In this document: piece after piece, positions 108-16,929 of the stretch | Position numbering within the stretch: the first letter of the stretch is position 1 | How the letters are laid out: the number at the start of each line of letters is the position of its first letter | Source: Pedosphaera parvula Ellin514 | GTDB lineage: Bacteria > Verrucomicrobiota > Verrucomicrobiia > Limisphaerales > Pedosphaeraceae | Reading direction: 5' to 3' | DNA length: 64,000 nt | Assembly: GCF_000172555.1 (NCBI RefSeq) | Contig: NZ_ABOX02000001.1 | Coordinates: 190,164-254,163 of the forward strand | Notes under the pieces: generated by a model | What the model saw: the letters and a program-made list of their open reading frames with translations, nothing else | Databases searched by the model: none | What the model was told of the DNA's origin: nothing | Program-made: the position numbers and the translations under genes

Positions 108-116
108 AAATTGGCT

Positions 117-2171
117 ATGAACATTCTCAAATCACTGTCAAGGCAACTGACTCGAAGCACACCCGATGTTTGGGTAAGCCGAATTGCGATTTATAGAAAA
201 TTGGCAGATGCGCCGATCCGAGACGTTTCCCTGAAGAAAGGGCTGAACATTGTTTGGGCTGAAGAGCCCGAGGGTGAAGATGACAAACGCGACATTGCCG
301 GGCATAGCGCAGGCAAGACAACATTCTGCCGATTGCTCCGATACGTGCTTGGAGAGAAATCATTCGCCAACAAAAGTAATACCGGGTTAATCAAAAAGGC
401 GTTTCCAAATGGCTATGTTGGCGCAGAGCTATTTGTGAAGGGGGTTAAGTGGGCGGTTTTACGTCCGTTGGGTGAGAATCGGAACTCCTACGTGCTCAAG
501 GAATCGACTATCGAAGTACTGATTGAAAAAAAGGGCGATGCCGCATATCAGGATACTTATCCGGCAAAAATTGGACTGGATGCTCTGCTTGACCCGCTTG
601 AATCCGCCACGGTCGTCCGCACGAATGAACCCATCAAATGGGGGCACCTTTTGGCGTGGTGCACCAGGGATCAAGAAGCCCGATTCCAAAATATTCATGA
701 CTGGCGGTCTCCGCGAAGTGATTCAGATTGGCCAGCATTCAGATTCCCGAAATCGGACCCGCTTTTCGTCATGCGGGTCGTTCTCGGCCTCTTTCTTCCC
801 GATGAGCTTGTCGGTGAAGAAGCTCTATCTAAACTCCAACAATCGCTAGAGAGGGCGGAGGCCGCGCTGGAAGTGGCCAAAAAGGAACCAGCCTACTGGC
901 GCGAGCACTACGACACCAAGGCTCGGCAACAGCTTAAGCAAATATTACCGAAGGACGGTGGAGCAATCGAGAGTGCCCCGCTATCCTCGGACGAAATGCT
1001 TCCAGATCTTAAGCGTTACACAGATAAAGCGAAATATGAGTTGGGCGAGCAGATCGGGAAGTTGGAAAAATCCGAGCTTGCACTCCAAATTGAAATTAAC
1101 TCCCTGAACGAAACAATTGCCGCCAACAAAACCGAATTGCAGCAATTGGCCGGTCTTTTCACCCTCGAATCCACGGCAGAATGCGAGGCAAGCGCTGGAT
1201 TGAAAAGAAATGAAGACTTCAGACAAAAGACGCAAGAGAACAAGGATAAAACCTGTCCCTTCGGAGATGTTTTAATCGGTCAGTGCAGTTATGTCTTGGA
1301 AAGACAGGAGCTAGTTAAACGCAATGCAGTCCAAGACGCTCACACGCTCGAGCAAATGGAAGCCAAACGAGCCAGTGCACGAGCAAAGGTCGCCTCACAA
1401 CAAAAGGCTTTGAAGCACGGCATCCAATCCAACGAACTGAAGCGGACGAATCTCACAAAGCAGCAGAGCAAGCTAGTGGTTGATATAGCACAGAAAAAGG
1501 TCATCCAAACCGAATTGGATGCTGACTTGGAGAATTTAACATTGTGGAAATTGCGCCACGAAGCTCCAGACAAATATGCAAAATTACAGGAACACTTTGG
1601 AATCATCGAAGGTTTGCGGAAACAAGTTGAAGCGAAAGAAACTGATTTGAATCGCCTCCTTGCCGAACACGACACCAATCGCGATCTTCTCAACACCATC
1701 TTTTCAGCAGCGGCAAAGAGAGTGCTGCCATCAACAAATTACGACGGCCGGGTTATGTTGGAGGATCGCGAGTTGCATTTTCAAATCACCCACGGCGGAA
1801 CGATGACGGGCGAGGCGATGGAAACGCTTGCGGTCTTGTTAGCCGACATCAGCTGCCTCATATACAACTCATTTTCGTCGCGGTCCTATCTTCCGGGATT
1901 TCTGTTGCACGACAGCCCGCGCGAGGCGGACTTGGGCTTGCGTCTTTATCGTGGCTTTTTCCGATTTGCGGCGCAGTTGGAATCTGACTTCCAAGAGCTT
2001 GGAGGCTGTCCGTTTCAATACATCATAACTACAACCACTCCGCCGCCCAAAGTCCTCATCAACGATACCTACGTTGCGCTTCAACTGGACGCATCCAAAG
2101 AGGCAGAATTGTTGTTTCGTCGCGATCTTTCAAAATCTCCGGAAAAGGAACAGCTCGACTTAATCCAATGA
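117..2171 (+). CDS. DUF2326-family ABC/SMC-like ATPase (ABC-3C type)
   Basis: A 684-residue ATPase of the SMC/Rad50-like ABC type. A Walker A motif GHSAGKTT lies near residues 62-69. The middle third is long, charged and coiled-coil-like, with a hinge-like CPFGDVLIGQC segment. The C-terminal part holds a Walker B-like FLLHDSPRE. This arrangement fits the DUF2326 ATPases of ABC-three-component conflict systems, which are predicted to sense invaders and license a partner effector. ATG at 117 is preferred to the in-frame TTG at 111. It opens a + strand run of defence-type genes. The family call rests on motif reading; the biological role is inference. Confidence 0.72.
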   Translation: MNILKSLSRQLTRSTPDVWVSRIAIYRKLADAPIRDVSLKKGLNIVWAEEPEGEDDKRDIAGHSAGKTTFCRLLRYVLGEKSFANKSNTGLIKKAFPNGYVGAELFVKGVKWAVLRPLGENRNSYVLKESTIEVLIEKKGDAAYQDTYPAKIGLDALLDPLESATVVRTNEPIKWGHLLAWCTRDQEARFQNIHDWRSPRSDSDWPAFRFPKSDPLFVMRVVLGLFLPDELVGEEALSKLQQSLERAEAALEVAKKEPAYWREHYDTKARQQLKQILPKDGGAIESAPLSSDEMLPDLKRYTDKAKYELGEQIGKLEKSELALQIEINSLNETIAANKTELQQLAGLFTLESTAECEASAGLKRNEDFRQKTQENKDKTCPFGDVLIGQCSYVLERQELVKRNAVQDAHTLEQMEAKRASARAKVASQQKALKHGIQSNELKRTNLTKQQSKLVVDIAQKKVIQTELDADLENLTLWKLRHEAPDKYAKLQEHFGIIEGLRKQVEAKETDLNRLLAEHDTNRDLLNTIFSAAAKRVLPSTNYDGRVMLEDRELHFQITHGGTMTGEAMETLAVLLADISCLIYNSFSSRSYLPGFLLHDSPREADLGLRLYRGFFRFAAQLESDFQELGGCPFQYIITTTTPPPKVLINDTYVALQLDASKEAELLFRRDLSKSPEKEQLDLIQ

Positions 2172-2281
2172 AAACTCCTCCGAATCACGTTCGATTGAGT
2201 GGACATCGTTTTTTGATCCATTCTCAATTCCCAAGACAAGGCCAACAGACTGCGCAATGAGGAACTCATTCCCAATTGACG

Positions 2282-2797
2282 ATGAAAAAGTCTAAGAAAG
2301 CGAAACTTAATATCATTCAGCAGGGCGAACTCACAAACATCCGTGGCGAACGAGGTGAGAAAATTGCTTATCTAGCCCTTACCGATTACGCGGGGGGGAA
2401 CAAACCACTCATTCGTCCGGCGTTCCTCGGCGAGAAGTGGCCAACGCTTGATTACTACGCTGAGCTTGAAGGTGACGGAAAGCAAACGCCCGTAGCATTG
2501 TTTCAGGTTAAAACTTCGGGCAAGGGTGTAAACAATGCGAAGAAATCCCTCCCGGTTCAACTCACGAAGAAGGATGTCGAGCGTTTGGCACTGCTTCCAA
2601 TTCCTGCATATGTAATTGGTGTCTGCGAGTCAACGTGGAGGGTGTTTGTGCGCGCGATTGCGAAAGGGAGCAAGGGCATGGCGACGATACCTGCCCACTA
2701 CGAGTTGACTCCAACCAATCTCAGAGCCTTGCACGCGGAGATCGCCGCGCACTGGAAGGCGAACACGCCGAAATCCCCTCAATCAAAATTTGTGTGA
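2282..2797 (+). CDS. DUF4365-like predicted nuclease-fold protein
   Basis: This 171-residue protein resembles DUF4365 proteins, which adopt a restriction-endonuclease-like fold. The N-terminal RGERGEKIAYLAL, then LDYYAEL, then FQVKTSGKG match the usual helix, acidic strand and (Q/E)-x-K strand order of PD-(D/E)XK enzymes. Catalysis is not certain because the second acidic position appears to be Q. It starts about 110 nt after the ATPase gene; the ATG at 2282 is chosen over a TTG two codons earlier. Its last codons overlap the next gene by 4 nt, so translation is probably coupled. A role as defence effector or accessory is inferred from the neighbourhood. Confidence 0.6.
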   Translation: MKKSKKAKLNIIQQGELTNIRGERGEKIAYLALTDYAGGNKPLIRPAFLGEKWPTLDYYAELEGDGKQTPVALFQVKTSGKGVNNAKKSLPVQLTKKDVERLALLPIPAYVIGVCESTWRVFVRAIAKGSKGMATIPAHYELTPTNLRALHAEIAAHWKANTPKSPQSKFV

Positions 2798-3225
2798 GCT
2801 TACCCGATTACGTTCAGCGACGAGCCGAGATTCTTGCGGAATTGTTCCTCCGCGAATTGAATCCCAAGTTTCTAGCTCAGGCAACTTTCCAAGGTGCCAC
2901 CTGGGACTACATGGCTGCTTTCCAGACAAAAGCAGGGCGGCTAATCAACATCACGGTGAAAGTCATTGCGACAGAGAAGCCGATTCCTGAAGAAATGATT
3001 TTTGTAATGTCCAACAAACAAGCAAATGAGATTCTAAATTCTAACTTACCCATTCTTATCGTTGTCGTGGACGTAAAGACTAACTCAATCGCGTGTAACT
3101 GGGTTTCTAAAGCGACAGTTTCACACTCGTCGCGGCTTAACGGAGATGCCCGAATTCGATTCCCAGCTTTGAAGGTGGATCAAGGGACAGTTGGGAAACT
3201 CATCTTTGATATTGAGAAGATGTAA
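2794..3225 (+). CDS. Small protein of unknown function translationally coupled to the DUF4365-like gene
   Basis: A 143-residue protein begun at a GTG that overlaps the preceding stop (GTGA at 2794-2797), the usual sign of coupled translation; the open frame extends further upstream but only inside the previous gene. It has an N-terminal helix (AEILAELFLREL), a W-D-Y segment, then alternating hydrophobic strands (NITVKVI, PILIVVVDV). This resembles a degenerate nuclease fold like that of DUF4365, without a clear active site. A non-catalytic partner of its upstream neighbour is possible. No family is recognised with confidence. Confidence 0.55.
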   Translation: MSLPDYVQRRAEILAELFLRELNPKFLAQATFQGATWDYMAAFQTKAGRLINITVKVIATEKPIPEEMIFVMSNKQANEILNSNLPILIVVVDVKTNSIACNWVSKATVSHSSRLNGDARIRFPALKVDQGTVGKLIFDIEKM

Positions 3226-3297
3226 ACCACAACCTTTGGAATTTCGCGATTAGTTACATGACATGACTACGGGACCCAAATTCAGAATCATTGTCAC

Positions 3298-4176
3298 ATG
3301 AACACAGTTTCAGACGCTTTGAAAAGCCTCCTAAATCGAATCCAGCCGACTGGCGGGGAGGTTCAGGCAGCGGCAAAACATTTTGAGACGATCAAGACGC
3401 GGCTCGAAACGGTTTTCGCGGCGAGGAAATTCCCCAAAGCCGGGAGCTTTAGCCGAGGGACTTTCATCCGGGGACGGAGCGATGTTGATGTGTTCGCCCA
3501 AATACCACTCGACGAGGTTTGGTGGGGCAGTGAATGGAAGTCATCCTTCACGATACTCGACAGGTTCCGGAAGGAGATCGCCGCGCGTCTGCCGAGCACC
3601 AAGGTTGGGCGAGACGTTCACGCAATCGTCGTTGAGTTCTGGGACATGGATATTGATGTCGTGCCCGCAGCTTGGGGCGGTTTTTCCAAGGAATACAAAC
3701 GTCCGCTCTATTACGTTCCCGATGGAAATGGGCGTTGGATGCTCACTAGCCCGGATATTCATAACGGCTACATCGCGTTAAAGAATCAGGAGAGTGGCGG
3801 GAAACTTCGGGCGGTAGCACAGCTTTTCAAATTCTGGCGCGTCTGCCGTGATCCCGCGATTCCGATTTCATCATTTCACATCGAAATGGTTTTGGCGAGT
3901 GAAGGAATTTGCAACGGAGTCAAGAGTTACGCCGAGTGCATGACCGAGTTGCTTCAAAGGATGGCGGAGCGGGATTGCGCTGGCATTCTTGATCCCTATC
4001 GCATCAACGGCAACATTGCGGCGACCAAGTCTGAGGCGCAACGCGCGATGGCCTTGGCGTCGGTGAAAAACTCCCGCGATCATGCGAAGGCGGCGCTTAT
4101 TGCAGAGCGCAACGGAAAAGTGGATGAGGCGCTGGGTCAGTGGAACTACGTTTTCAACTACAAGTTGTTCAGATGA
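3298..4176 (+). CDS. CBASS cGAS/DncV-like nucleotidyltransferase (CD-NTase, SMODS)
   Basis: This 292-residue Pol-beta-superfamily enzyme carries the NTase signature GSFSRGT at residues 49-55, DVD at 62-64 and a third acidic residue in MDIDVVPA near 118-120. Its length and the layout with a helical C-terminal half fit SMODS-type CD-NTases, which on phage infection make cyclic oligonucleotide messengers from NTPs. The nucleotide product cannot be read from sequence. The gene overlaps the next by ATGA (4173-4176), and that gene encodes an S-4TM membrane effector. The synthase-effector pairing is the core of a CBASS operon and supports the assignment. No Cap2/Cap3 ubiquitin-like accessory genes are visible, so it would be a minimal type I-like system. 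Confidence 0.85.
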   Translation: MNTVSDALKSLLNRIQPTGGEVQAAAKHFETIKTRLETVFAARKFPKAGSFSRGTFIRGRSDVDVFAQIPLDEVWWGSEWKSSFTILDRFRKEIAARLPSTKVGRDVHAIVVEFWDMDIDVVPAAWGGFSKEYKRPLYYVPDGNGRWMLTSPDIHNGYIALKNQESGGKLRAVAQLFKFWRVCRDPAIPISSFHIEMVLASEGICNGVKSYAECMTELLQRMAERDCAGILDPYRINGNIAATKSEAQRAMALASVKNSRDHAKAALIAERNGKVDEALGQWNYVFNYKLFR

Positions 4177-5105
4177 ACCAACCTGAAACCCTCTGTGATA
4201 TTCCCGAAAAGCAGAACATCGAGCGTTCGCTGAAGCACATTGCTGCTTGGTCGCATCTCTACGGGCACGCGAAGGTCGTGGCTGGCTGGCAGTTGATCCT
4301 GTCCGTTCCGTGTGCCTTGGTGATGTCGTTGGTTGCTTTACGATGGCCAGAGGCGAAGACCGTGACCACGCCGTTCTCCCTCCTCTTTGGGTGGATTGAT
4401 GTTTTGTGGCTGGACCGAATCCAAAGCGACCGCAAGAAAGTTGCTGCAAAAATGCAGGAGCAATTCGATTGCGAGTTATTCGGTCTAGGTTGGAATGAAA
4501 TCCGTTGTTCTAGTCCACCGGAAACGGAGGAACTGAACGAAGCTGCTGACGCTTTCAGACGAAAAGACCCCAAGGCGAATCACCGAGATTGGTATCCCGT
4601 GGAAGTTGGTCGCCTTCCGTCTTCTCTCGCACGCCTCATTTGCCAGAGGGCGGCAGTCTGGTGGGACATGTCGCAGCGGCGCAAATATGCTCGCTGGCTT
4701 GTTGCTGCCGTCGCCACGCTTGTGGTTGGCGTCGTGGCGATTTCCTTTACCGCTGACCAGCGGGTTCGTGACATGGTGCTTTCAGTTTATGTGCCGATTG
4801 CCCCGGCTGTAGTTTGGGCCGTTAGGGAGTGTATTCGACAGAGGGATGCCGTCTCAGCGTTGGAGAAATTGAAAGGTCAGATTGAGAAGGTTTTCGCCAG
4901 GGCAATTTCCGGAAAGCAAAATTTCGGCGAAATCGATCGGCTTGCCAGACACATCCAGGATATGATTTGTGACGGCAGATCACGGAATCCATTGTTCTTC
5001 AATTTCATTTACCGCCGTCTTCGTCCAGACCACGAGTTGCGAATGAACGAAAAGGCCGAGGAGATGGTTGAGGAAGCTTTGGCAAAGCAGGAGCACTGGA
5101 AATGA
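4173..5105 (+). CDS. S-4TM family predicted pore-forming CBASS effector
   Basis: A 310-residue membrane protein. Two hydrophobic segments lie in the first quarter (WQLILSVPCALVMSLVAL, and FSLLFGWIDVLWL) and two after the middle (WLVAAVATLVVGVVAISF, and SVYVPIAPAVVWAV), separated by a cytoplasmic-type charged domain and followed by a charged helical tail. This 2+2 layout is that of S-4TM effectors predicted alongside SMODS nucleotidyltransferases, where messenger binding is thought to open a pore or disrupt the membrane and abort infection. ATG at 4173 overlaps the synthase stop and the gene ends in another ATGA overlap with the following gene, so all are one transcription unit. Confidence 0.82.
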   Translation: MNQPETLCDIPEKQNIERSLKHIAAWSHLYGHAKVVAGWQLILSVPCALVMSLVALRWPEAKTVTTPFSLLFGWIDVLWLDRIQSDRKKVAAKMQEQFDCELFGLGWNEIRCSSPPETEELNEAADAFRRKDPKANHRDWYPVEVGRLPSSLARLICQRAAVWWDMSQRRKYARWLVAAVATLVVGVVAISFTADQRVRDMVLSVYVPIAPAVVWAVRECIRQRDAVSALEKLKGQIEKVFARAISGKQNFGEIDRLARHIQDMICDGRSRNPLFFNFIYRRLRPDHELRMNEKAEEMVEEALAKQEHWK

Positions 5106-5320
5106 ATCTCCCGATTTTTAGCGATACAATACTTCGTCAGATCGGGAACGTGCTCGAAGGCACGGCCACACATCGCGAATTCTCTTCCTTGTTCTCGGAG
5201 TGCAGGATTGTGGAACAAGGGGGAACTCCGAAGTGGGAGCGCATCACGCTCGCGCTAACGGTTCGACAGAAGCAAGACGGTTGCGGGAATAATGTTATGG
5301 CATTCATTCAGCGGTTATGA
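5102..5320 (+). CDS. TIGR02391-family protein, N-terminal portion (split gene)
   Basis: This 72-residue product matches the N-terminal part of TIGR02391 (Ymh-like) proteins: FSDTILRQIGNVL, then RITLALTVRQKQDGCGNNV, ending MAFIQRL. In typical family members the chain runs on directly into the segment encoded by the next frame. Here it stops at TGA 5318-5320, overlapping the ATG of the next frame. It overlaps the S-4TM gene by ATGA (5102-5105). Either a one-base frameshift or a true gene split coupled by reinitiation would explain this. TIGR02391 proteins are often found beside restriction or other defence genes; their function is unknown. Confidence 0.62.
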   Translation: MNLPIFSDTILRQIGNVLEGTATHREFSSLFSECRIVEQGGTPKWERITLALTVRQKQDGCGNNVMAFIQRL

Positions 5321-5895
5321 ACCCTGTTCGCTTCGTGGGCCAGACAAGCCGGTTTGAGGAAGTTCGTCACCGTCTGAATGTGGTGATTTCATTCGTGGGG
5401 CTTCAACTTGGCGAAGATGGGAGAATCCGTGTCGCAACAGCAGCTCGAACTTTGAGCGAAGCAGCCCAGCGAGCCGGTCGGTTGCGGAAGCTTTTGGAGC
5501 AAAGGCAGGTTCATGGGGACGTGCTGGCATTCTGTCGGGAAGAACTCTTAAAAGATAATTACTTTCATGCGGTTTTTGAAGCGACCAAGAGTGTTGCAGA
5601 TAAGATTCGGACCAAGAGCGGACTGTTGTCAGACGGCGCAGAATTGGTGGATCAAGCATTCTCCTTAAAGAATCCAGTATTGGCGATTAATAGCCTGCGC
5701 ATCGAAACCGAACAATCCGAGCACAAAGGTTTCGCAAATCTACTGAAAGGTGTGTTTGGCACGTTTCGGAATGTGACTGCCCACGCACCCAAGATTCACT
5801 GGACGATTGAGGAGCAAGATGCATTGGACCTACTCACGATGGTTTCATATCTGCATCGTCGACTGGACCGTTCAGCCAAGGTGATCAAGTCGTGA
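5317..5895 (+). CDS. TIGR02391-family protein, C-terminal domain (split gene)
   Basis: A 192-residue product carrying the conserved TIGR02391 core: NPVRFVG, AARTLSEAAQRAGRLR, LKDNYFHAVFEATKSVADK, then GTFRNVTAHAPKIHW and an ALDLLTMVSYLHRRLD tail. The R-N-x-x-AH motif resembles that of HEPN-like RNases, but this is an observation and not a known activity. The start ATG at 5317 lies in an ATGA overlap with the upstream N-terminal piece. The domain itself appears intact, with no internal stop, which argues for recent change or functional reinitiation. It is the last long gene of the CBASS-like operon. Confidence 0.75.
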   Translation: MNPVRFVGQTSRFEEVRHRLNVVISFVGLQLGEDGRIRVATAARTLSEAAQRAGRLRKLLEQRQVHGDVLAFCREELLKDNYFHAVFEATKSVADKIRTKSGLLSDGAELVDQAFSLKNPVLAINSLRIETEQSEHKGFANLLKGVFGTFRNVTAHAPKIHWTIEEQDALDLLTMVSYLHRRLDRSAKVIKS

Positions 5896-6314: not shown

Positions 6315-7340
6315 TCAGATTTTGTGGACATAACCCTCAGTCGTTCTCGTGCTGCTGTGGCCCATGTCACTGGCGATCTGTGTCAATGATCTGCCTTCCG
6401 CATTTGACTCAGTAGCAAAGGTATGCCGCAGGCAATGGAAGGACTTGCCTTTGAGGCCCAGCCGAGCACAGATACGTGTGAAGCTGACCGAGAGATAAGC
6501 TCTTCGCGTCGGATCATTGATGATGTCTCGCTCTTCAGGGAAGACATATCTGGCATGAGCAACCGGCTGGAGCGTAGCCGCCTGTGCCAGACCATCACTC
6601 ATCTTTAGCGACACCCGTTTATCCCGCTTGTCCGTCCAAACAGTGATATACCCCGGTTGCCTGAAACAATCCCATTCCAACTGGCAAATATCACCCAGGC
6701 GCAAACCCAGCTCCCGGCTGGCTTGGATGGCGAACCTCCAGAAGCCGTCGGTGGCTTTAACCAGCCCATCATACTCCGCTGCCGTGAAGACGCGCTTAAC
6801 CGTGGTTTCCTTCTGAACATGGCTCAGAATCTTGTAATTCACACTCACCAGCTTGGACGGGTCATTCGGAGTCCAGCCTTTGCCTGCAATGAAGAAGAAG
6901 AAGGAACGGATTGCAGCCAGCATGATGGTACGGCTATTGGCTTTGGTCTGCGACTCCCGGTTATTAATCCAGTCCGAGATGTGTTTCTCCGTGATCGCCG
7001 CTGGTGGGAGAGCTTCAACCTGAGCCGCAGTGATCCAGGAGCGGATGTAGTGCACATTGTTCATGATCGTCCGAGGTGACTTGCCCCGCGTCTCCATCCA
7101 TTCCTGGTAGTCCTCCAGGGCTTTCTGGAGCGTGAGCTTCCTGCCACTGATCAGATACCCGATGGCCTCCTGCGTCAGGCGTCCGGCCCTGGCAGCCAAT
7201 TCCAGGTCTTTTAATCCGCTTTCCTTGACGACACGCTCGGCATCGGCGCGGTTGGTGCAACGGGTGGTAATGGTCTTGGTTGTGCCTTGGGTGGTTTTGA
7301 ACTGGGCATGGAATATGCCCTTTTTGTTTACTAGTTTCAT
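6315..7340 (-). CDS. Tyrosine recombinase / integrase
   Basis: A 341-residue site-specific recombinase of the phage-integrase class. An N-terminal SAM-like core-binding domain is followed by the catalytic domain with the active-site Arg in ELGLRLGD, HCLRHTF holding the His-x-x-Arg pair, GHSS, and the nucleophile Tyr337 in EGYVH near the end. All catalytic positions look intact, unlike the two integrase fragments further right. The ATG at 7340 (MKLVNKKG) is preferred to a longer in-frame start at 7361. It probably integrates or excises the block to its right. A chromosomal housekeeping XerC/D is less likely given the neighbours and the divergent N-terminus. Confidence 0.85.
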   Translation of the reverse strand: MKLVNKKGIFHAQFKTTQGTTKTITTRCTNRADAERVVKESGLKDLELAARAGRLTQEAIGYLISGRKLTLQKALEDYQEWMETRGKSPRTIMNNVHYIRSWITAAQVEALPPAAITEKHISDWINNRESQTKANSRTIMLAAIRSFFFFIAGKGWTPNDPSKLVSVNYKILSHVQKETTVKRVFTAAEYDGLVKATDGFWRFAIQASRELGLRLGDICQLEWDCFRQPGYITVWTDKRDKRVSLKMSDGLAQAATLQPVAHARYVFPEERDIINDPTRRAYLSVSFTRICARLGLKGKSFHCLRHTFATESNAEGRSLTQIASDMGHSSTRTTEGYVHKI

Positions 7341-7417
7341 AGGATTGTTTCTGAGAAGCACTACACTGACGCTTTATCCGACAAAGCATCCAGGCTGGAG
7401 GGCAGGGGAGGTGAAGG

Positions 7418-7784: not shown

Positions 7785-8027
7785 ATGAATGAACACAACT
7801 CCTGGAGCTTGGAAGACGGGGTAATCACCATAAGGGTTCGTCAGCGTATTGTTGCAAGGATGAAGTCACAGTTAGAACTGCATCTTCACCAGCAAATACA
7901 ATTTGAGTGTTTCGGAGGCGGCTGCTATGAGCTAAAGCTGTCAGCTTCGTTTCATTTGGAAATGTTTTGCAGGTATTCGTTTCCACAACTGCTTGGCGGA
8001 AGTAGCATTTTATCTATTGAGCAGTAG
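7785..8027 (+). CDS. Small hypothetical protein, convergent with the helicase gene
   Basis: An 80-residue product starting MNEHNSW, with an ITIRVRQRIV strand and a Cys/Gly segment (CFGGGCYELKL). The ATG at 7785 is chosen over a TTG twelve codons upstream. Its 3' end overlaps the 3' end of the long minus-strand gene by 14 nt (8014-8027). There is no recognisable family, and coding status is plausible but unproven. Confidence 0.4.
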   Translation: MNEHNSWSLEDGVITIRVRQRIVARMKSQLELHLHQQIQFECFGGGCYELKLSASFHLEMFCRYSFPQLLGGSSILSIEQ

Positions 8028-11000
8028 TGACCAACAAACTGTCCTTGATGGCTGATCTAAGTTTTGGCCAGGCAAGTTCGCACTCTGACTCAGGCGATGC
8101 ACCACTCACGTCGAAACGGGATATGGAGTTTGCCAATACTTCCGACATGTCAACCGGCTTGAAGCCTCGCGGGACTCGCTTGCCCATGAGGCAGATCGTA
8201 GCCGCGTCCTGCTTGGTTGCCACGACATCGAACTGTGTTTCTTCGATGCTGCGAGCGTGAAGGATGACGTAGATGGTTACACCTGGCCTGCTGTTCACAC
8301 GGTCCACTCGGCCCTTAGCCTGGTCCAATGGTCCGTTGCTGTATTCGAGTGAGCCAATGATTTCGTATTTGCACTGGCTGAACGAATGCGCTGCCGCGCA
8401 CTTGATACCCATGAGCATCACCTGTGTCTTTCCTTTCTTGAACAGGTTTGCCTGATAGCTGTGCTGGCTGGCTGGCACCTTTGAGTCGATGCGCGAAACC
8501 TTGACGCCGGCCTCTGTCAGCAGCCTCATCAAAGTATCCGTCTGACCGACGCGAGCGCTGATGATTACCACTTGCTCGCCTTGTCCCATGATTTCCCTGA
8601 CCAGCTCCATGATGGCAACGGTCTTGGGATTCATGTTGCTCTTGACCTTCATCCCAGGCGGTGACTTCTCAAACCCAGCAGGGTCCGCACAGATGGCGCG
8701 AAGGTAGGCGGTCTGTCTCCTTGCGCGGATCAAAGGATGCCGACCCGGTACGTTGCTCCGGTTCAGGAAGTGACCATACAGACGGGATTGCTCCACACCC
8801 ATTGGAACACGCACGTCGATTACCTTCGCGTCCTGGTAGTTCGGGTTGCATTCCTTCTTGCTGATGTAGGCCATGATTGGCTTGAGCAGCTTGAGCAGTC
8901 GCGCTGGGCTGGAGATGATGGGCGATGTCTTGACGCATTTGCCCTTCCATTTCTTGTCAGCCGCCCTGTTCATTTGCTCCTGTGTCTCGTCGCGTTCCTC
9001 GCTCAGGAATGTCTCGTTGAACCTGCCCAGCTCGTGACGTGCATACGGCCATGCCGCGTTACGCCTGTTACCCATGAACCAATGCGACACTGCCAACCAA
9101 CCGCACAACGAGAACAGGTTGCTCACGATGTTGGGGATGGGTGTGGCAGTGAGTGCGTAGCGATACCTGGGCTGCAAGCGGATCATGATTTGCGTCACGT
9201 TCGCAGACAGGTTGGTGCAAAGGTGAGCTTCATCCAGCATCACCATGTCGAACTCATGCCCGATAATGGTGGACAGGGATGGTTGCAGCACGCAACGAAT
9301 GCCGTGGTGTTCCTTGCCAATGGTATTGCACCAGTGCGCTTCATTGCCACGACCTTCAATCAATGGCAGCTTGGCGTAGCCTTCGTCTGGGAACATCGCG
9401 TTCAGCTTCTCATCGTCCCACTTGTCAGCCGCGCTCTCCCTGGCTCCGTTCTGGAACATGGCTTGATAGTAGGTGACATACACGCCGGACGGTAGCTCTC
9501 CACCGTTCTGCGCCTTGATCCGCTGGTAATCCTCCAGACAGAAGATTTCCCAGATTTGCAGGAAGGGTGCGAACTGCGCAATCTCGCTCACCCACTGGGA
9601 GGCGTTGTATTCCTGGGACTCCTCATCTTCCTCTTCGCCCATTTCGCTTGAGCGCATGGTGCCTTGAGGTGCCACAATGAGCGCACGCTTTGGTCCCTTC
9701 ATGGCGAGCAGGCTGATTGCCATTAGCGTTTTGCCGGTGTTATGAGTGACTGTGAAATCACCCATCACGTAGCGGCCATCTCCGGTAATGGTGAAGCCGT
9801 AATAATCATCACGGCCCAGTCGCTCCACCTTAAAGCCAGTTCGTAGGACGTCCTTTTTTTGCTTTCGCACTGGAGCCTTTCTTCGAGCGATGCGACACGG
9901 TATCATATTGCAATTACCAGAAATACTGACTCGGTAATACGTGCCGCAAAATCCACCCTGACAGCTTTTGACGCACGGTTTGATATAAGCGGCCAGACCA
10001 ACGCTACGGGCAACAAATGCCACGTCTTCAGCAAGTTGCCTAGACTTGGATATGTAGTCGTATCCCCCGCAGGACAAGCTCCCATCTGTGTCCATTAAGC
10101 CAGCCAATACTTCCAGGCGCTGATTTATGCTGCATACCTTAAAGACTTCGGGAATGAACTTGTTTCCTGAATGCTTTCCAGCCAACCCCAATCGAAATAG
10201 GGAACGACGTAGACTGTCGCATTTGGTGAAGTGAAACGTCGGGTTTCCTGGTCCTCGTTGACTCTTCCTGATACCCCAGCCGTTACGCCTCGAGTGGAGA
10301 CGAACGAACTGCTCTGTTTCGGGGTCGGGTTTGCTGAAACTGAGTTGCCCTTCTTTTAAGAAACCATCGCCAAGCAACAAGCCGAGGAAATAAGGAGTGA
10401 TCGGTTGTCTTACTTCCGGCCATTGGACTGGCACTCGAAATAATTTGTGGATGTGTTTCTGGGTTGTATTCCAACTCAGCCAATCCTTCACGCTTACGTC
10501 AATTACGGTGGCCTTGCTGGCCTCATTACGGCTTTTGTTTGTGCGAACAAGGGTAAGGATGTGATTAATGTTTACAACGAACGGTTCGCCCTTGGTTGGA
10601 ACAATACGCATCATTTCATCTTGCCCACGTCGCAATTCCAAAACTCGGCGTGGTGTTCCATCCCAGCCTTGAAGCTCGTCACCAACGCGCACATCTTCCA
10701 CTTTCTTAACTGAACCGTCTGCAAGAAGAATCATAGCGCCTTTCTCGTGGCACCCTGTTGCACCCGCTACTAAACCGTAATCCTTGGATGCCACTCGCGC
10801 CAGATACGGTGTCTGGCCAGCGTAGTAGTTGTAGCCAGCCAACATCTCGCACGACTTGAGGATGGAAAGGTTCTGCTCGTAACGGTCAGGGAACAGCTCA
10901 ACGACCGTTCTGACTTCCGGCTTCTTGAATATCATCCAGAGGAATGATTCATCGAACTCATCCTGTCCTGCCTTGTCCATGAACTTGCAAGGCTTCTCAT

Positions 11001-12207
11001 TGTCATCGCAAATTGCGATGTAACGATCCGAGCCGGACAGGCTGCATTCGTGCTCCTTGGTGAACATGGTCTTGGACTCCTCATTCCAGTGGACCTTGTT
11101 ACGTTTGAAGACCGTCCTGAACGTGTAGGTGCCGGTGACAACGGGATACTTCATGCCAGCGGTGAAGTGCATCTTGTCGTTGTGGACGGTGGTGTGACAC
11201 TCCAGGTGTTCTTCCTCATCAGCGTAGGCCACACGTTCAAAGTCGGTGACTGGCATGATGGGACATTGAACCTTGTGAACATCTGCCAGCGCCTGCTCAA
11301 TGGCGCTCTTGGCAGCGGGTTCGATGGTGTAGAGTCCGCAGCCCACCAACTCCTTCATCAGGTCGCGGGTTTCCTTTTCGGTGGTGAGGGTGAGGGGATG
11401 GCAGTCCTTGACGCGGTGCAGCCGGAGGATTTCATCACGTCCGATCCTGCGCTTCACGGTGGTCCTGACTGACAGATACGTTTGCAGGTAACCAGCGCGG
11501 TCCAAGTAGATGTTGAACTTGGGGCGATTCGTTGCCTCTTCGTCGATGATTTCCTTCACTCTCTCCCATGCGGTGTTCAGCTCATGGTAGTGAGTGGCTG
11601 AGGATTTGGCTGAATTCTCATACCAGACGATGCCAACCACGACTTCACACTGGTTCCAGACGGAAGCCTTGGTTTCGTATTTATAAACCCATGGGTGTTT
11701 GTCGATGCCCAGGCGTTCAATGGTCTTGTGGTTGCTAATGAAGTAACCAGTGTTGCAATGCTCGGTCAGGAACTTCCAGGTCGCGTCTGTGGAGTCAATC
11801 ATCTTCCCGTCATCATCCTTCCAGCGCTTGCCGAATGGCGGGTTGGCGTTGCCCATGGCCCAGCGCATATTGTAGATGCCGCTCAGGTCTTTGATGACTT
11901 CCCAGACCTTCATGAAGTTGCCGGTGATGAGCTTGATGTCCTCGCCTTCGATACGGTTGTCGATGTCGATGCCGTAGCGTGTGGTGCCCCAGCCGCCCAG
12001 CCCCTTGACCAGTGCGCCTTCGCCACACTGGGGATCAATGACGGTGACGGGGGACTTGGTTCTGAGGTGACTGACGCAGTAATCCCTCAGCTCATTGGGC
12101 GTGAAGTATTGCTGTTGTCCGGCCAGCGTTGCCCACTTGGGCGATGTCTCCGCTGCCAGGACTTCCTCGATGTTCTCTAACGCGATGGTGCTTCTTGTTT
12201 GGTTCAT
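8014..12207 (-). CDS. N6-adenine methyltransferase / SF2 helicase fusion interrupted by an intein
   Basis: A 1397-residue precursor. Residues about 57-66 (IDPQCGEGAL) form a SAM-binding motif I and ANPPF at 121-125 is the catalytic motif IV of N6-adenine methyltransferases. A superfamily 2 (SNF2/DEAD-like) helicase follows: Walker A GATG|TGKT, DEAH at 992-995, a TATP motif III and a C-terminal QAKGRVDR motif VI. The P-loop is split by a 338-residue intein (residues 486-823). The mature protein after splicing would be about 1059 residues. Combined methyltransferase-helicase proteins are common on phages and integrative elements; here it may serve replication, self-protection or restriction. 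The ATG at 12207 (MNQTRS) lies just after a terminator-like hairpin. A longer start at 12225 would fall inside that hairpin. Confidence 0.82.
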   Translation of the reverse strand: MNQTRSTIALENIEEVLAAETSPKWATLAGQQQYFTPNELRDYCVSHLRTKSPVTVIDPQCGEGALVKGLGGWGTTRYGIDIDNRIEGEDIKLITGNFMKVWEVIKDLSGIYNMRWAMGNANPPFGKRWKDDDGKMIDSTDATWKFLTEHCNTGYFISNHKTIERLGIDKHPWVYKYETKASVWNQCEVVVGIVWYENSAKSSATHYHELNTAWERVKEIIDEEATNRPKFNIYLDRAGYLQTYLSVRTTVKRRIGRDEILRLHRVKDCHPLTLTTEKETRDLMKELVGCGLYTIEPAAKSAIEQALADVHKVQCPIMPVTDFERVAYADEEEHLECHTTVHNDKMHFTAGMKYPVVTGTYTFRTVFKRNKVHWNEESKTMFTKEHECSLSGSDRYIAICDDNEKPCKFMDKAGQDEFDESFLWMIFKKPEVRTVVELFPDRYEQNLSILKSCEMLAGYNYYAGQTPYLARVASKDYGLVAGATGCHEKGAMILLADGSVKKVEDVRVGDELQGWDGTPRRVLELRRGQDEMMRIVPTKGEPFVVNINHILTLVRTNKSRNEASKATVIDVSVKDWLSWNTTQKHIHKLFRVPVQWPEVRQPITPYFLGLLLGDGFLKEGQLSFSKPDPETEQFVRLHSRRNGWGIRKSQRGPGNPTFHFTKCDSLRRSLFRLGLAGKHSGNKFIPEVFKVCSINQRLEVLAGLMDTDGSLSCGGYDYISKSRQLAEDVAFVARSVGLAAYIKPCVKSCQGGFCGTYYRVSISGNCNMIPCRIARRKAPVRKQKKDVLRTGFKVERLGRDDYYGFTITGDGRYVMGDFTVTHNTGKTLMAISLLAMKGPKRALIVAPQGTMRSSEMGEEEDEESQEYNASQWVSEIAQFAPFLQIWEIFCLEDYQRIKAQNGGELPSGVYVTYYQAMFQNGARESAADKWDDEKLNAMFPDEGYAKLPLIEGRGNEAHWCNTIGKEHHGIRCVLQPSLSTIIGHEFDMVMLDEAHLCTNLSANVTQIMIRLQPRYRYALTATPIPNIVSNLFSLCGWLAVSHWFMGNRRNAAWPYARHELGRFNETFLSEERDETQEQMNRAADKKWKGKCVKTSPIISSPARLLKLLKPIMAYISKKECNPNYQDAKVIDVRVPMGVEQSRLYGHFLNRSNVPGRHPLIRARRQTAYLRAICADPAGFEKSPPGMKVKSNMNPKTVAIMELVREIMGQGEQVVIISARVGQTDTLMRLLTEAGVKVSRIDSKVPASQHSYQANLFKKGKTQVMLMGIKCAAAHSFSQCKYEIIGSLEYSNGPLDQAKGRVDRVNSRPGVTIYVILHARSIEETQFDVVATKQDAATICLMGKRVPRGFKPVDMSEVLANSISRFDVSGASPESECELAWPKLRSAIKDSLLVTTAQ
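9739..10752 (-). other. Mini-gene-size intein with LAGLIDADG homing endonuclease, in the helicase P-loop
   Basis: The 1014-nt insert begins with Cys1 in CHEKGAMILLADGSV (block A) and ends with TVTHN followed by Thr at +1 (block G), the expected splice residues. A typical block F (YYGFTITGDGRYVMGDF) precedes the end. Two dodecapeptide motifs, FLGLLLGDGFL and LAGLMDTDGSL, mark a LAGLIDADG homing endonuclease with both acidic residues retained. It sits exactly between Gly and Thr of the helicase Walker A motif, so the ATPase is inactive until splicing occurs. Both splicing and homing functions look intact. Confidence 0.93.
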
Positions 12208-12213
12208 AAATAA

Positions 12214-12240
12214 AAAAGCCGCCATGCTTTAGGCACAGCG
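12214..12240 (-). terminator. Terminator-like hairpin immediately upstream of the helicase start codon
   Basis: AGCCGC and GCGGCT form a 6-bp GC-rich stem, extended by an inner TGC/GCA, and on the minus strand the hairpin is followed by six T residues a few bases before the ATG at 12207. It has the form of an intrinsic terminator. It would end minus-strand transcription coming from the right, or attenuate the methyltransferase-helicase gene. Confidence 0.6.
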
Positions 12241-12413: not shown

Positions 12414-12436
12414 AGGTTGCATATTAATCGTTAGGC
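12414..12436 (+). repeat. attC-like L'/R' end before the methyltransferase cassette
   Basis: This 23-bp stretch ends in GTTAGGC, matching the integron R' core GTTRRRY. It is 21/23 identical to 13237-13259, the sequence that precedes the next cassette-like gene. It lies 15 bp before the methyltransferase start codon, as expected for the left boundary of a gene cassette. The upstream 12241-12413 shows nothing else. Confidence 0.5.
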
Positions 12437-12451
12437 CGCTTTCCATGTGTT

Positions 12452-13126
12452 ATGACCACGAAGCCAAAAGATCGCACATTTGCTAGGAAACTTTGTTCCG
12501 AGCACGCAGAGCGCAATGACAATCTTAGTTGGTTTGAAGCGCTGTATCATAAGGCGCGGGGAGACGAGACTATCATTCCATGGGCAGACATGGTTCCCAA
12601 TCCGCAGCTTTGTGACTGGCATCGGCGGACGGGTTTCGATTTTCAAGGCAAGCGTTGCCTGAAGATTGGTTGCGGCTTGGGGGACGATGCCGAGTATCTT
12701 GCATCGGCAGGAGGTAGTGTTGTTGCTTTCGACATTTCTCCGACGGCTATTGAGTGGTGTCAACGGCGCTTTCCGGATTCGAGTGTTACTTACATCACGG
12801 CTGACTTGTTCGCAGTGCCACCGGCTTGGCATGGTGCATTTGATTTCGTTTTGGAGTCATACACGCTTCAAGTTTTTCCTCCTGAAATGCGCCAGAGAGC
12901 CATGCGGTGCATTGGTGACCTTGTTGCACCATCAGGCACGCTCTTGCTCATTTGCCGTGGCCGGGAGGAGTCCGAATCTCCGGGTGCCATGCCATGGCCA
13001 CTCATGCGTCGGGAGTTGCAGTCTTTACTTGGGTTTGGGCTACTGGAGTTTTCATTCGAGGATTACAGCGATGCGGAGAATCCACCTGTTCGCCGATTTC
13101 GTGTTCAGTATGATCGAGCCACCTAA
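12452..13126 (+). CDS. Class I SAM-dependent methyltransferase (thiopurine-methyltransferase-like), cassette gene
   Basis: A 224-residue Rossmann-fold methyltransferase. The SAM motif CLKIGCGLGDDAEYLA has the usual GxGxG-type loop, followed by VVAFDIS (acidic residue binding the SAM ribose) and FDFVLESYTLQVFP as the post-motif region. This pattern is common in TPMT/Tellurite-resistance-like small-molecule methyltransferases. The substrate is unknown. The gene lies between two integron-like recombination sequences and is oriented opposite to the surrounding long genes, so it was probably acquired as a mobile cassette. Its TAA stop is embedded in the downstream R''-like box. Confidence 0.78.
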   Translation: MTTKPKDRTFARKLCSEHAERNDNLSWFEALYHKARGDETIIPWADMVPNPQLCDWHRRTGFDFQGKRCLKIGCGLGDDAEYLASAGGSVVAFDISPTAIEWCQRRFPDSSVTYITADLFAVPPAWHGAFDFVLESYTLQVFPPEMRQRAMRCIGDLVAPSGTLLLICRGREESESPGAMPWPLMRRELQSLLGFGLLEFSFEDYSDAENPPVRRFRVQYDRAT

Positions 13127-13259
13127 CCATGCGCGAGGCTGTGTGAAAACTCCTCCACAGTGCGAGAGAGCAGCACCTCCAGTGGCAACCTCCCACCGCG
13201 CCTATGAGGCACCGAATGTTTCAACACCCGAATCACAGGTTGTATATTAATTGTTAGGC
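13121..13259 (+). repeat. attC-like site after the methyltransferase cassette
   Basis: The 139-bp stretch starts with ACCTAAC (R''-like, RYYYAAC) and ends with GTTAGGC (R'-like), which are complementary, as in integron attC sites. The R'' side continues into CATGCGCGAGGC and GTGTGAAAACTCC, a sequence repeated after two other genes in the window. The inner L boxes are not clearly complementary, so this may be a chimeric or unusual attC. Confidence 0.5.
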
Positions 13260-13287
13260 GGGTCCGCCATGTCAGCGTCCATACACC

Positions 13288-13677
13288 ATGAAAGTCATCG
13301 AAGACAAGGTCACTGTTCATCCGCCTCACGCCATCTGCAAGGCGGATGTTCCGGTCATCTTTTCCGCGTTGCCAGCGGAGTGGACGGCGGGCATTCAGAC
13401 GGTGAGGCTGAGTTCCTCGCTTGGAGAGAATCCGACGGTTATCGCATTCTTCCATCCACCCGATGGTTCACTGCTGGTCAAGTCGCGAGGATTTACCAAA
13501 GAGCGAGTTTTGCGTGGTGTTCTTACCGAGTTGGCAGGACACGCGCTCGGGCTGACCTTTCGCACTTATCGCCGGTTGCAGAAGCGGGACGAGTCGCGAG
13601 TGCAGCAAGTCATTGCTCCGCTCGTCGAGGAGATTTTGCCGCAGCTTTCACAGAAGAAGGTTTGGCTGGACAAATGA
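13288..13677 (+). CDS. Cassette-type hypothetical protein
   Basis: A 129-residue product beginning MKVIEDKVTVHPPHAICKA, with strands followed by a helical C-terminal half (VLRGVLTELAGHALGL). It starts 28 bp after the GTTAGGC box at 13253 and ends 4 bp before another CCTAAC box, leaving almost no non-coding sequence. That compact one-gene unit is what integron cassettes look like. No known domain is recognised. Confidence 0.6.
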   Translation: MKVIEDKVTVHPPHAICKADVPVIFSALPAEWTAGIQTVRLSSSLGENPTVIAFFHPPDGSLLVKSRGFTKERVLRGVLTELAGHALGLTFRTYRRLQKRDESRVQQVIAPLVEEILPQLSQKKVWLDK

Positions 13678-13681
13678 CGAT

Positions 13682-13714
13682 GCCTAACCATGCGCGAGGC
13701 CGTGTGAAAACTCC
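13682..13714 (+). repeat. R''-type half of an attC-like site
   Basis: GCCTAAC followed by CATGCGCGAGGC and GTGTGAAAACTCC; 31/32 bases from 13683 match 13122-13153. No matching GTTAGGC follows before the next gene, so the right half appears lost. It marks the right edge of the two-cassette array. Confidence 0.55.
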
Positions 13715-13738
13715 TGGCATGATTGGCGGGTGAGCTGA

Positions 13739-14571: not shown

Positions 14572-15468
14572 TTACGTTGATTGCTCCATGGACGCTTTAT
14601 CCTCCAGTTCCACCAGCCCACTTGCCCTGAGCAGTCGCAACACTTCTTCGCTGGCTAACTCGTATGACCTCCAGCAAGCATTGTCCTCGGTGCTGCTCAT
14701 GTTCTCAAAAAAGAAGTCATGCTTCCTCGCCTCGGCATACTTGCCTGGTGTCCAGTAATAGCTGCCGATTCCAAATTGGTCCTGGCAGGCTCGGCTCGGG
14801 TCCGTTTCACCAACAGCGAATTGCAATCGGCGGAAGATCGATTCATGGGAGAAGATGAAGGACAGCCGGTCCATTTCTGGTTGTTCACTTGCCTTCTTGA
14901 CCGGGACAGTCATCTGGTAACTGCCCTTGCCTTGACCAGTGCAGCCCATGCACATAGTCAACTCGCAACGATAGCCCAAGGTTTCCAGTGCATCGATCAT
15001 GGCCACGATGGCAGCACCGCGCATTTGGAACAGCTCGCGGTTGCACCCTGCGCTCACGAAGACGTTGAGTCCGATGCTTACGATGCGTCCACCGCTGGCG
15101 TTGTGCTCCTGTGGTGGGAACTCGATCATGTGACTCGGCTCGCCTTCCAGGTAACGGCCTACGCACACTTCATCCCCAGCCTCAGCAAACCTCGGCTCCG
15201 GCCTGACGATCTTGCTACAGATCACGGAACGAATGCGGTCGGCCATTTCCTTCACCCGGTCGCGTCCTTCCGCCCAGCCGTGTGTGGCCAGCTTGAAAGC
15301 CTCCTCAAATGTTTCGGTGCCAGCCCAGTTTGCGTGTCCAACTCGGCGGCTCATTCGTGATTCAGGGGGCAGGAAGGTGGCATCCTTGGCTGCATACTGC
15401 ATCCATTCAGCCCAGTCCTCATACCGGCGGATATATGTCCCAGTCGTGGGATTGTCGATTGCTTCCAT
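14572..15468 (-). CDS. Partner protein of the MoxR-type ATPase, possibly DUF7192-like
   Basis: A 298-residue soluble protein that begins 3 nt after the AAA ATPase gene ends. N-terminal YEDWAEWMQYAA, a basic middle, a hydrophobic GGRIVSIGLNVFVSAG stretch, and a Cys-rich CELTMCMGCTGQGKG loop are visible. MoxR ATPases usually act on a neighbouring VWA-domain protein; this product occupies that place and has a similar DxSGS-free, strand-helix layout, so it could be a divergent VWA-like or DUF7192-type substrate. That link is inference from context and overall pattern; I see no clear MIDAS motif. Confidence 0.55.
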   Translation of the reverse strand: MEAIDNPTTGTYIRRYEDWAEWMQYAAKDATFLPPESRMSRRVGHANWAGTETFEEAFKLATHGWAEGRDRVKEMADRIRSVICSKIVRPEPRFAEAGDEVCVGRYLEGEPSHMIEFPPQEHNASGGRIVSIGLNVFVSAGCNRELFQMRGAAIVAMIDALETLGYRCELTMCMGCTGQGKGSYQMTVPVKKASEQPEMDRLSFIFSHESIFRRLQFAVGETDPSRACQDQFGIGSYYWTPGKYAEARKHDFFFENMSSTEDNACWRSYELASEEVLRLLRASGLVELEDKASMEQST

Positions 15469-15471
15469 AGG

Positions 15472-16929
15472 TTAGAGTGCGTTTTCAATCTTCTGGCGGG
15501 TTGCGATGTCCATGCCTTTCCAGATAACCATGTTCTCTACATGGGTCTGGCCAATACCGGCATCGAAGAGTTTCACGCCGTGAACTGTGGCGCGAGGACT
15601 GATGACAGCCCGAACCTTGAGTGTTTCAACTGCCTGGCGAATGGCAGTGACTCGTGCGAACCATTGGTCTGGTTCAAGTATGCCACCAAGAGTGTTCTCA
15701 AAGGTGGGTGAGGGTTTGGTGAGGCCAATGAGCGAGGCTTCCAGTCCCTCGTCGTAATCCCAGTCAATGACCACAAACCTGTCCAGCGTGGCAGCGTCCA
15801 ACTGATTGCGCCCAACATACAACCTGTCTGCACCTTGACCAAAGGTATTGGCTCCGGCGATCAGGATGAAATCCTTGTGCTTCTGTTTCATGCCAATTGG
15901 CGTGGCGAACTCCTCATTTGCCAGGAGCATGTTGGTATAGGTGGCACAGCCAGCGTGTGCTGCGTCCCATTCATCCAAGAGCATGACGCCGCCTTGCTCC
16001 GCGATTTGAGCCAGCAGCGTGGTGTGATACTCACCAGTGGCATCCTTGTAGCCGTAGAAGTCGGCCTTGCTGGTCATTGGCCCAAGCGACATGGCACCAA
16101 ACTTCATGTCCAGCGCCTTGGCGACCATGGCGGCCCCTGTCGTCTTACCGCCGCCAGCCGGGCCAACTAGCATGACGCAGAGACGCTGGGAGACGCAGGC
16201 CATGAGCAAACCGAACTTGTAATGTTGACGTCCCACTTCCTTGACCTCGCCAGTGGGACTGATGATGGCGATACGCTGCACCCCCATGTCCTTGATGGCT
16301 TCCGCGATCAGGTTTTTCACACGTTCCACGGGGAACGAACCATTACTCAAGGCTTTCTTCACCTCATCGTGGATGTCCGGCAGGGCAAAAGGCAGTTCAC
16401 TGCGAACAATCTGCTTCACTGCATCGGCATCGACACCACCCTTCGGCAGCCTGGGAATGATGCGCTTCAAGATGGCTTTGGTCAGGTCATCATCGCTCTC
16501 CTTTATCTCGATTACGCTATCGGGGTTGACGGGAGCTGGGACGGTTGGAGCAGGTGGCTCCTGTGGAGCTGAGACGATTGGTGCAGCATCTGATGCGGGA
16601 GATTCAACCCGTTTATCCCCAACTCCCACCTGGCCTTTTAACTTGTGCCATTCCCGGTGGACGATGGCACTGACACAGTCCTTGTAGAACGCGATCTTGT
16701 CGTCATCGGAGAAGTCAGCGTTGTTGTGAAAGACAGGGAGCGCAATGGTCAGGCCAGTGACGGCTCGGAGGTGAGCCATGACTTTCTTCTGCACATCGGC
16801 CTTGGTTGCTGTCTCTGCTGCCCTCTGTGGCTCTGTCATTTTGTCGGTGAACTTGGGAGCCATCAGTCGGCACAGGACTTCGTAGCCCTGTTGTGGTGTT
16901 GCTTTGGGTTTGGTTTCGGTTGCTGTCAT
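15472..16929 (-). CDS. MoxR/CbbQ-type AAA+ ATPase
   Basis: A 485-residue ATPase with a 215-residue N-terminal extension containing a Pro/Ala/Val-rich linker (about 115-137). Walker A GPAGGGKT spans about 256-263, Walker B VMLLDE about 315-320, followed by a sensor-like AGANTFGQG and the LDAATLDRFVVIDWDY arginine-finger region. These are the hallmarks of AAA_5/MoxR ATPases, which remodel or activate partner proteins. It heads a five-gene minus-strand operon with tiny spacings (16934 to 13739), so the downstream proteins are the likely clients. Confidence 0.82.
   Translation of the reverse strand: MTATETKPKATPQQGYEVLCRLMAPKFTDKMTEPQRAAETATKADVQKKVMAHLRAVTGLTIALPVFHNNADFSDDDKIAFYKDCVSAIVHREWHKLKGQVGVGDKRVESPASDAAPIVSAPQEPPAPTVPAPVNPDSVIEIKESDDDLTKAILKRIIPRLPKGGVDADAVKQIVRSELPFALPDIHDEVKKALSNGSFPVERVKNLIAEAIKDMGVQRIAIISPTGEVKEVGRQHYKFGLLMACVSQRLCVMLVGPAGGGKTTGAAMVAKALDMKFGAMSLGPMTSKADFYGYKDATGEYHTTLLAQIAEQGGVMLLDEWDAAHAGCATYTNMLLANEEFATPIGMKQKHKDFILIAGANTFGQGADRLYVGRNQLDAATLDRFVVIDWDYDEGLEASLIGLTKPSPTFENTLGGILEPDQWFARVTAIRQAVETLKVRAVISPRATVHGVKLFDAGIGQTHVENMVIWKGMDIATRQKIENAL

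Follow-up and report, generated by a model that had tools for sequence, protein, structure and literature searches.

The nearest solved structure to the intein described here, by both sequence and fold, is the yeast VMA1 intein PI-SceI, which likewise combines a Hint splicing domain with a two-motif LAGLIDADG endonuclease. PI-SceI is inserted in VMA1 at a site other than Walker A; it also differs in length (454 aa compared to 338 aa) and is 25-26% identical over the aligned part. The helicase inteins of Listonella phage phiHSIC (AY772740 ORF42) and Klebsiella phage YX3973 have the same Cys and His-Asn ends, the same type of endonuclease, and the same insertion site, G|xGK(S/T). However, their hosts are ResIII-type SF2 helicases without a methyltransferase, and their +1 residue is Cys or Ser rather than Thr. 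The helicase intein of Salmonella phage vB_SenS-Ent1 (Jerseyvirus), annotated as an intein with a LAGLIDADG endonuclease, belongs to the same intein family (43% identical) and also lies in Walker A, but at GSGK|T, three residues further on, and in a separate group of the tree (98/93). A literature search for phiHSIC together with intein gave no match. P-loops are a classic site for inteins and include two terminase sites one residue apart (PMC5050341); thus, both the insertion position and the neighboring registers reported below are of a known kind. As for the host protein, DNA methylase-helicase dyads are known from phages and conjugative elements, P1 DarB being the archetype (PMC5512222).

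The intein and its host protein

We analyzed a stretch of 64,000 nucleotides from Pedosphaera parvula Ellin514, referred to as the window. The host gene is a single open frame (8014..12225, minus strand) for a 1403-aa precursor with an N-terminal adenine methyltransferase and an SNF2-type ATPase/helicase, interrupted by an intein at 9739..10752 (minus strand). Translation of the frame placed the intein at residues 492-829 (338 aa, 38.14 kDa) with the junctions ...YGLVAGATG / CHEKG...FTVTHN / TGKTLMAI..., such that the Walker A motif GATGTGKT is cut between residues four and five as GATG|TGKT. The terminal residues fit the class 1 pattern, with Cys1, a His-Asn end and a +1 Thr (C...HN|T); block B is NINH and block G is THN. 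The LAGLIDADG motifs, LGLLLGDG (residue 614) and LAGLMDTDG (residue 707), have both kept their acidic residues. The initial annotation, made from the letters alone, had placed the intein correctly to the base, and the splice residues, the two endonuclease motifs and the size of roughly 38 kDa that it gave were all found in the translation or computed from it.

When compared with Pfam on its own, the intein segment matched Hom_end_hint (E 1.9e-20, 74 bits) and LAGLIDADG_3 (E 2.6e-7), and full-length relatives of the intein were found with E values down to about 1e-90. Asp129 and Asp223 did not vary when the intein was aligned with seven relatives from viral contigs. Aligned with relatives from P-loops, the intein keeps Cys1, the block B N..H pair, a DDYYGF-like F block, the HN end, both catalytic Asp residues and the block D Lys (NKFIP). 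In block B (NINH) the threonine has given way to another residue; the N..H pattern is common to the relatives, and the histidine of this block in the Hint splicing domain is conserved among them. These results confirmed that the segment at 10752..9739 is a real and intact-looking intein, far beyond chance. It is probably active.

PI-SceI was the best match both in a sequence search of the PDB (E 3.9e-17) and in a Foldseek search with the intein model (E 4e-20). VIA superposition of the model on PI-SceI gave Z 20 over 263 residues with an rmsd of 11.6 (approximately 12 Å), a large value which indicates that each domain fits by itself and that the whole does not superpose as a rigid body. The Hint part alone was superposed on domain I of PI-SceI with Z 10.5 and an rmsd of 1.8 Å over 83 residues, and the endonuclease part on TliVMA with 2.4 Å over 173 residues. 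The model is of medium confidence (pLDDT 66.5), and residues 52-107, 294-310 and 330-338 are poor.

The N-extein (10753..12225, minus strand; 491 aa) carries methyltransferase motif I, DPQCGEG (12036), motif IV, NPPF (11844), and an FTP consistent with the TP motif of adenine methylases, and ends in GATG. The C-extein (8014..9738, minus strand; 574 aa) starts with TGKT, the first residue of which is the +1 Thr, and contains DEAH (9234), TATP (9150) and QAKGRVDR (8322). The joined exteins were computed to be 1065 aa and 120.7 kDa. Pfam recognized SNF2-rel_dom (E 1.1e-11) and Helicase_C in the host protein, and N6_Mtase scored just under its cut-off (20.0 compared to 20.4 bits, 0.4 short). A gamma-class adenine methylase (TP motif, NPP[FY]) is thus followed by a SWI2/SNF2 ATPase, the order seen in DarB-like dyads, and the methyltransferase-helicase host proposed initially was borne out. 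The likeness to the DarB-type dyad lies in the joining of a methylase to an SNF2-type ATPase and in the mobile setting (PMC5512222), whereas the protein here is stand-alone, 1065 aa when mature, and intein-bearing. The methylase begins after only approximately 30 residues, so that an N-terminal LPD36 domain would hardly fit. The N-extein had no match in phages and none in solved structures, and its single-sequence model was unusable (pLDDT 35). Defense-system models match the host protein only weakly, and we therefore do not class it as a defense gene. A sub-threshold glycine riboswitch match (27.7 compared to 32 bits) at 11447-11578 on the minus strand of the window falls within the coding region and is probably due to chance.

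Related inteins and insertion registers

Relatives 39-48% identical to the intein were found in P-loops of phage and bacterial helicases, where they occupy two registers, G|xGK(S/T) and GxGK|T. The same register as in the window was seen for an intein from the same phylum (G339; 48% identical, ATG|CGKT), the inteins of phages phiHSIC (47%, ATG|CGKS), YX3973 (44%, PTG|SGKS) and PJ16 (43%, PTG|SGKT), and inteins in two further genomes of the phylum (G056 and G018; 43%, PTG|TGKS). Related inteins in phages, which the initial annotation had suggested looking for, are therefore present at the very same site. A group of phage inteins at GK|T, three residues further on, was 39-46% identical. A branch with support of 98/93 sets the GK|T inteins apart in the tree, and the intein of the window falls outside their group, with the other G|xGK inteins, among which the branching order lacks resolution. 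The scanned hosts of G|xGK inteins are ResIII/DEAD-type helicases, indicating that helicases of more than one family have been invaded by a single intein family. In one of the genomes named above (G056), the helicase with the P-loop intein (L011; contig C105, frame 272-2941) carries another splicing domain of intein type further on (Pfam Intein_splicing, residues 517-817).

Intein-free homologues and the carrier element

Pattern scans of viral contigs and genome contigs found no close relatives of the whole host protein or of its exteins; homologues came from a more sensitive whole-genome search within the order. Three of these, L052 (genome G644) and L053 and L054 (genome G509), are 59-64% identical to the host in the C-terminal half and have an uninterrupted Walker A, ADTG|CGKS, with no insert. 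Intein-free helicase relatives could thus be found as had been proposed, and the intein is an in-frame insertion in a conserved motif that homologues have without it. The initial annotation had set a conserved non-intein domain of the helicase family against its own reading. Since these homologues run straight through Walker A, the segment is not a helicase domain, and with nothing found in its favor that alternative has a negligible chance of being correct. The residue at the +1 position is Cys in the three homologues compared to Thr in the window; both can be used as +1 residue in splicing. At the G509 loci, which hold the two closest full homologues, the methylase (525 aa) and the helicase (751 aa) are separate adjacent frames. 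A distant fused methylase-helicase of 1251 aa (G441) is 30% identical. Among the sequences found, none is a close intein-free allele of this particular host gene. An ArdC-like gene near the G509 copy is in keeping with a mobile element.

The setting in the window is also mobile-like, in agreement with what had been proposed. A tyrosine integrase (6315..7361, minus strand; Phage_integrase E 1.5e-15) lies just downstream of the host gene. Upstream, and transcribed in the same direction, are a DUF7192/phrog_1909 protein (14572..15468, minus strand) and a CobS-like AAA ATPase (phrog_249; 15472..16929, minus strand), both of which are likely part of the same element. No convincing direct repeats that could be att sites were seen between 3000 and 30000, and the window has no tRNA. 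Two other contigs of the genome, C35 (L002) and C46 (L003), carry short 5' fragments of the methylase-helicase gene, 71-72% identical, near pieces of the 14056 or 13739 genes that neighbor the host gene in the element. These fragments appear to be remnants of further copies, which suggests earlier insertion and decay of this element family in the genome. In another genome of the order (L055, G670 contig C70), a single frame at 4449-5327 has matches to the methylase-helicase as well as to the integrase, which looks like a damaged element copy in which a deletion fused the two genes.

Both the short fragments and the broken homologue would be in line with an intein that is degenerate, splicing poorly or not at all, so that the helicase half is dead and the host gene is decaying like its relatives. 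However, the frame in the window is open over all 1403 aa, and none of the helicase, splicing and endonuclease motifs has been lost; we consider such degeneration highly improbable.

Two small gene units, 12452-13126 (a methyltransferase) and 13288-13677, are bounded by repeats within 12420-13720 of the window. The repeats, CCTAACCATGCGCGAGGC(T/C)GTGTGAAAACTCCT and ...TATTAAT(C/T)GTTAGGC, are similar to the attC ends of integron cassettes. Genome-wide, the 33-nt repeat is confined to these two places, and no integron integrase scored above the cut-off in the genome. A likely defense cluster (window 111-5895) adjoins the element and includes an LmuB-like protein at 111-2171 (E 6.7e-15), a CBASS-type oligonucleotide cyclase at 3298-4176 (PADLOC E 1.2e-56) and a 321-aa protein with hydrophobic stretches at 4140-5105.

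Origin and persistence of the intein

GC3 was 0.503 for the intein compared to 0.713 for the exteins (Fisher P 4e-12), and the lowest extein block of equal length had 0.695. A related intein was present in 7 of 387 genomes of a phylum sample that included the genome of the window. The foreign GC3 and the patchy distribution suggest that the intein arrived horizontally; the source was probably a pool of phage and bacterial helicase inteins. The initial annotation had raised homing between elements. This was not observed, as searches of the same genome and of 7 others from its family gave no second copy of the intein. We infer homing from three features: the endonuclease is intact, the codon composition is foreign, and the distribution is scattered.

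After translation, the intein would excise itself by an N-S shift at Cys1, transfer to Thr+1 and cyclization of the Asn, restoring GATGTGKT and with it the ATPase. Because the P-loop is broken in the precursor, ATPase activity should depend on splicing, as the initial annotation had claimed, and the split anatomy of the P-loop supports this expectation. The endonuclease would cut P-loop DNA that lacks the intein, which would then be copied in by double-strand-break repair.

The same dependence could make the intein a conditional switch, retained because redox, metal or infection state alters how fast it splices, which in turn would control the ATPase of the methylase-helicase. The insertion in the ATP-binding loop, which makes splicing necessary for activity, would allow this, and there is precedent in the mycobacterial DnaB intein, reported to be an oxidative stress sensor (PMC6195587). 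However, insertion in a P-loop is a common pattern for inteins (PMC5050341), the intact-looking endonuclease is enough to explain persistence, the composition of the intein is foreign, and its absence from the homologues indicates that the family does not need it. We regard such a switch as very unlikely. The post-translational control proposed in the initial annotation likewise found no specific support, as the splice residues are standard-looking and inteins are commonly located in P-loops (PMC5050341). A broader scenario combines one intein lineage repeatedly invading P-loops of different SF2/SNF2 helicase families, with the site shifted by exactly three codons (G|xGK / GxGK|T), with an anti-restriction methylase-helicase that is here turned on only upon triggered splicing; this, too, is very unlikely.

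The simplest account is that the intein persists as a homing parasite that would be neutral to its host once spliced. Taken together, the sequence features indicate that this is very probably a class 1 LAGLIDADG intein within the Walker A motif of a DarB-like methylase-SNF2 dyad on an integrase-bearing mobile element, and a homing parasite rather than a regulator. The understanding of inteins in general is unchanged. Inserts of this kind were already known from phage helicases at the identical position. What the locus adds to this phage helicase intein family is a carrier that is a bacterial mobile element, with a clear register, G|xGK, and with intein-free homologues of the host that could be used for a test of homing.
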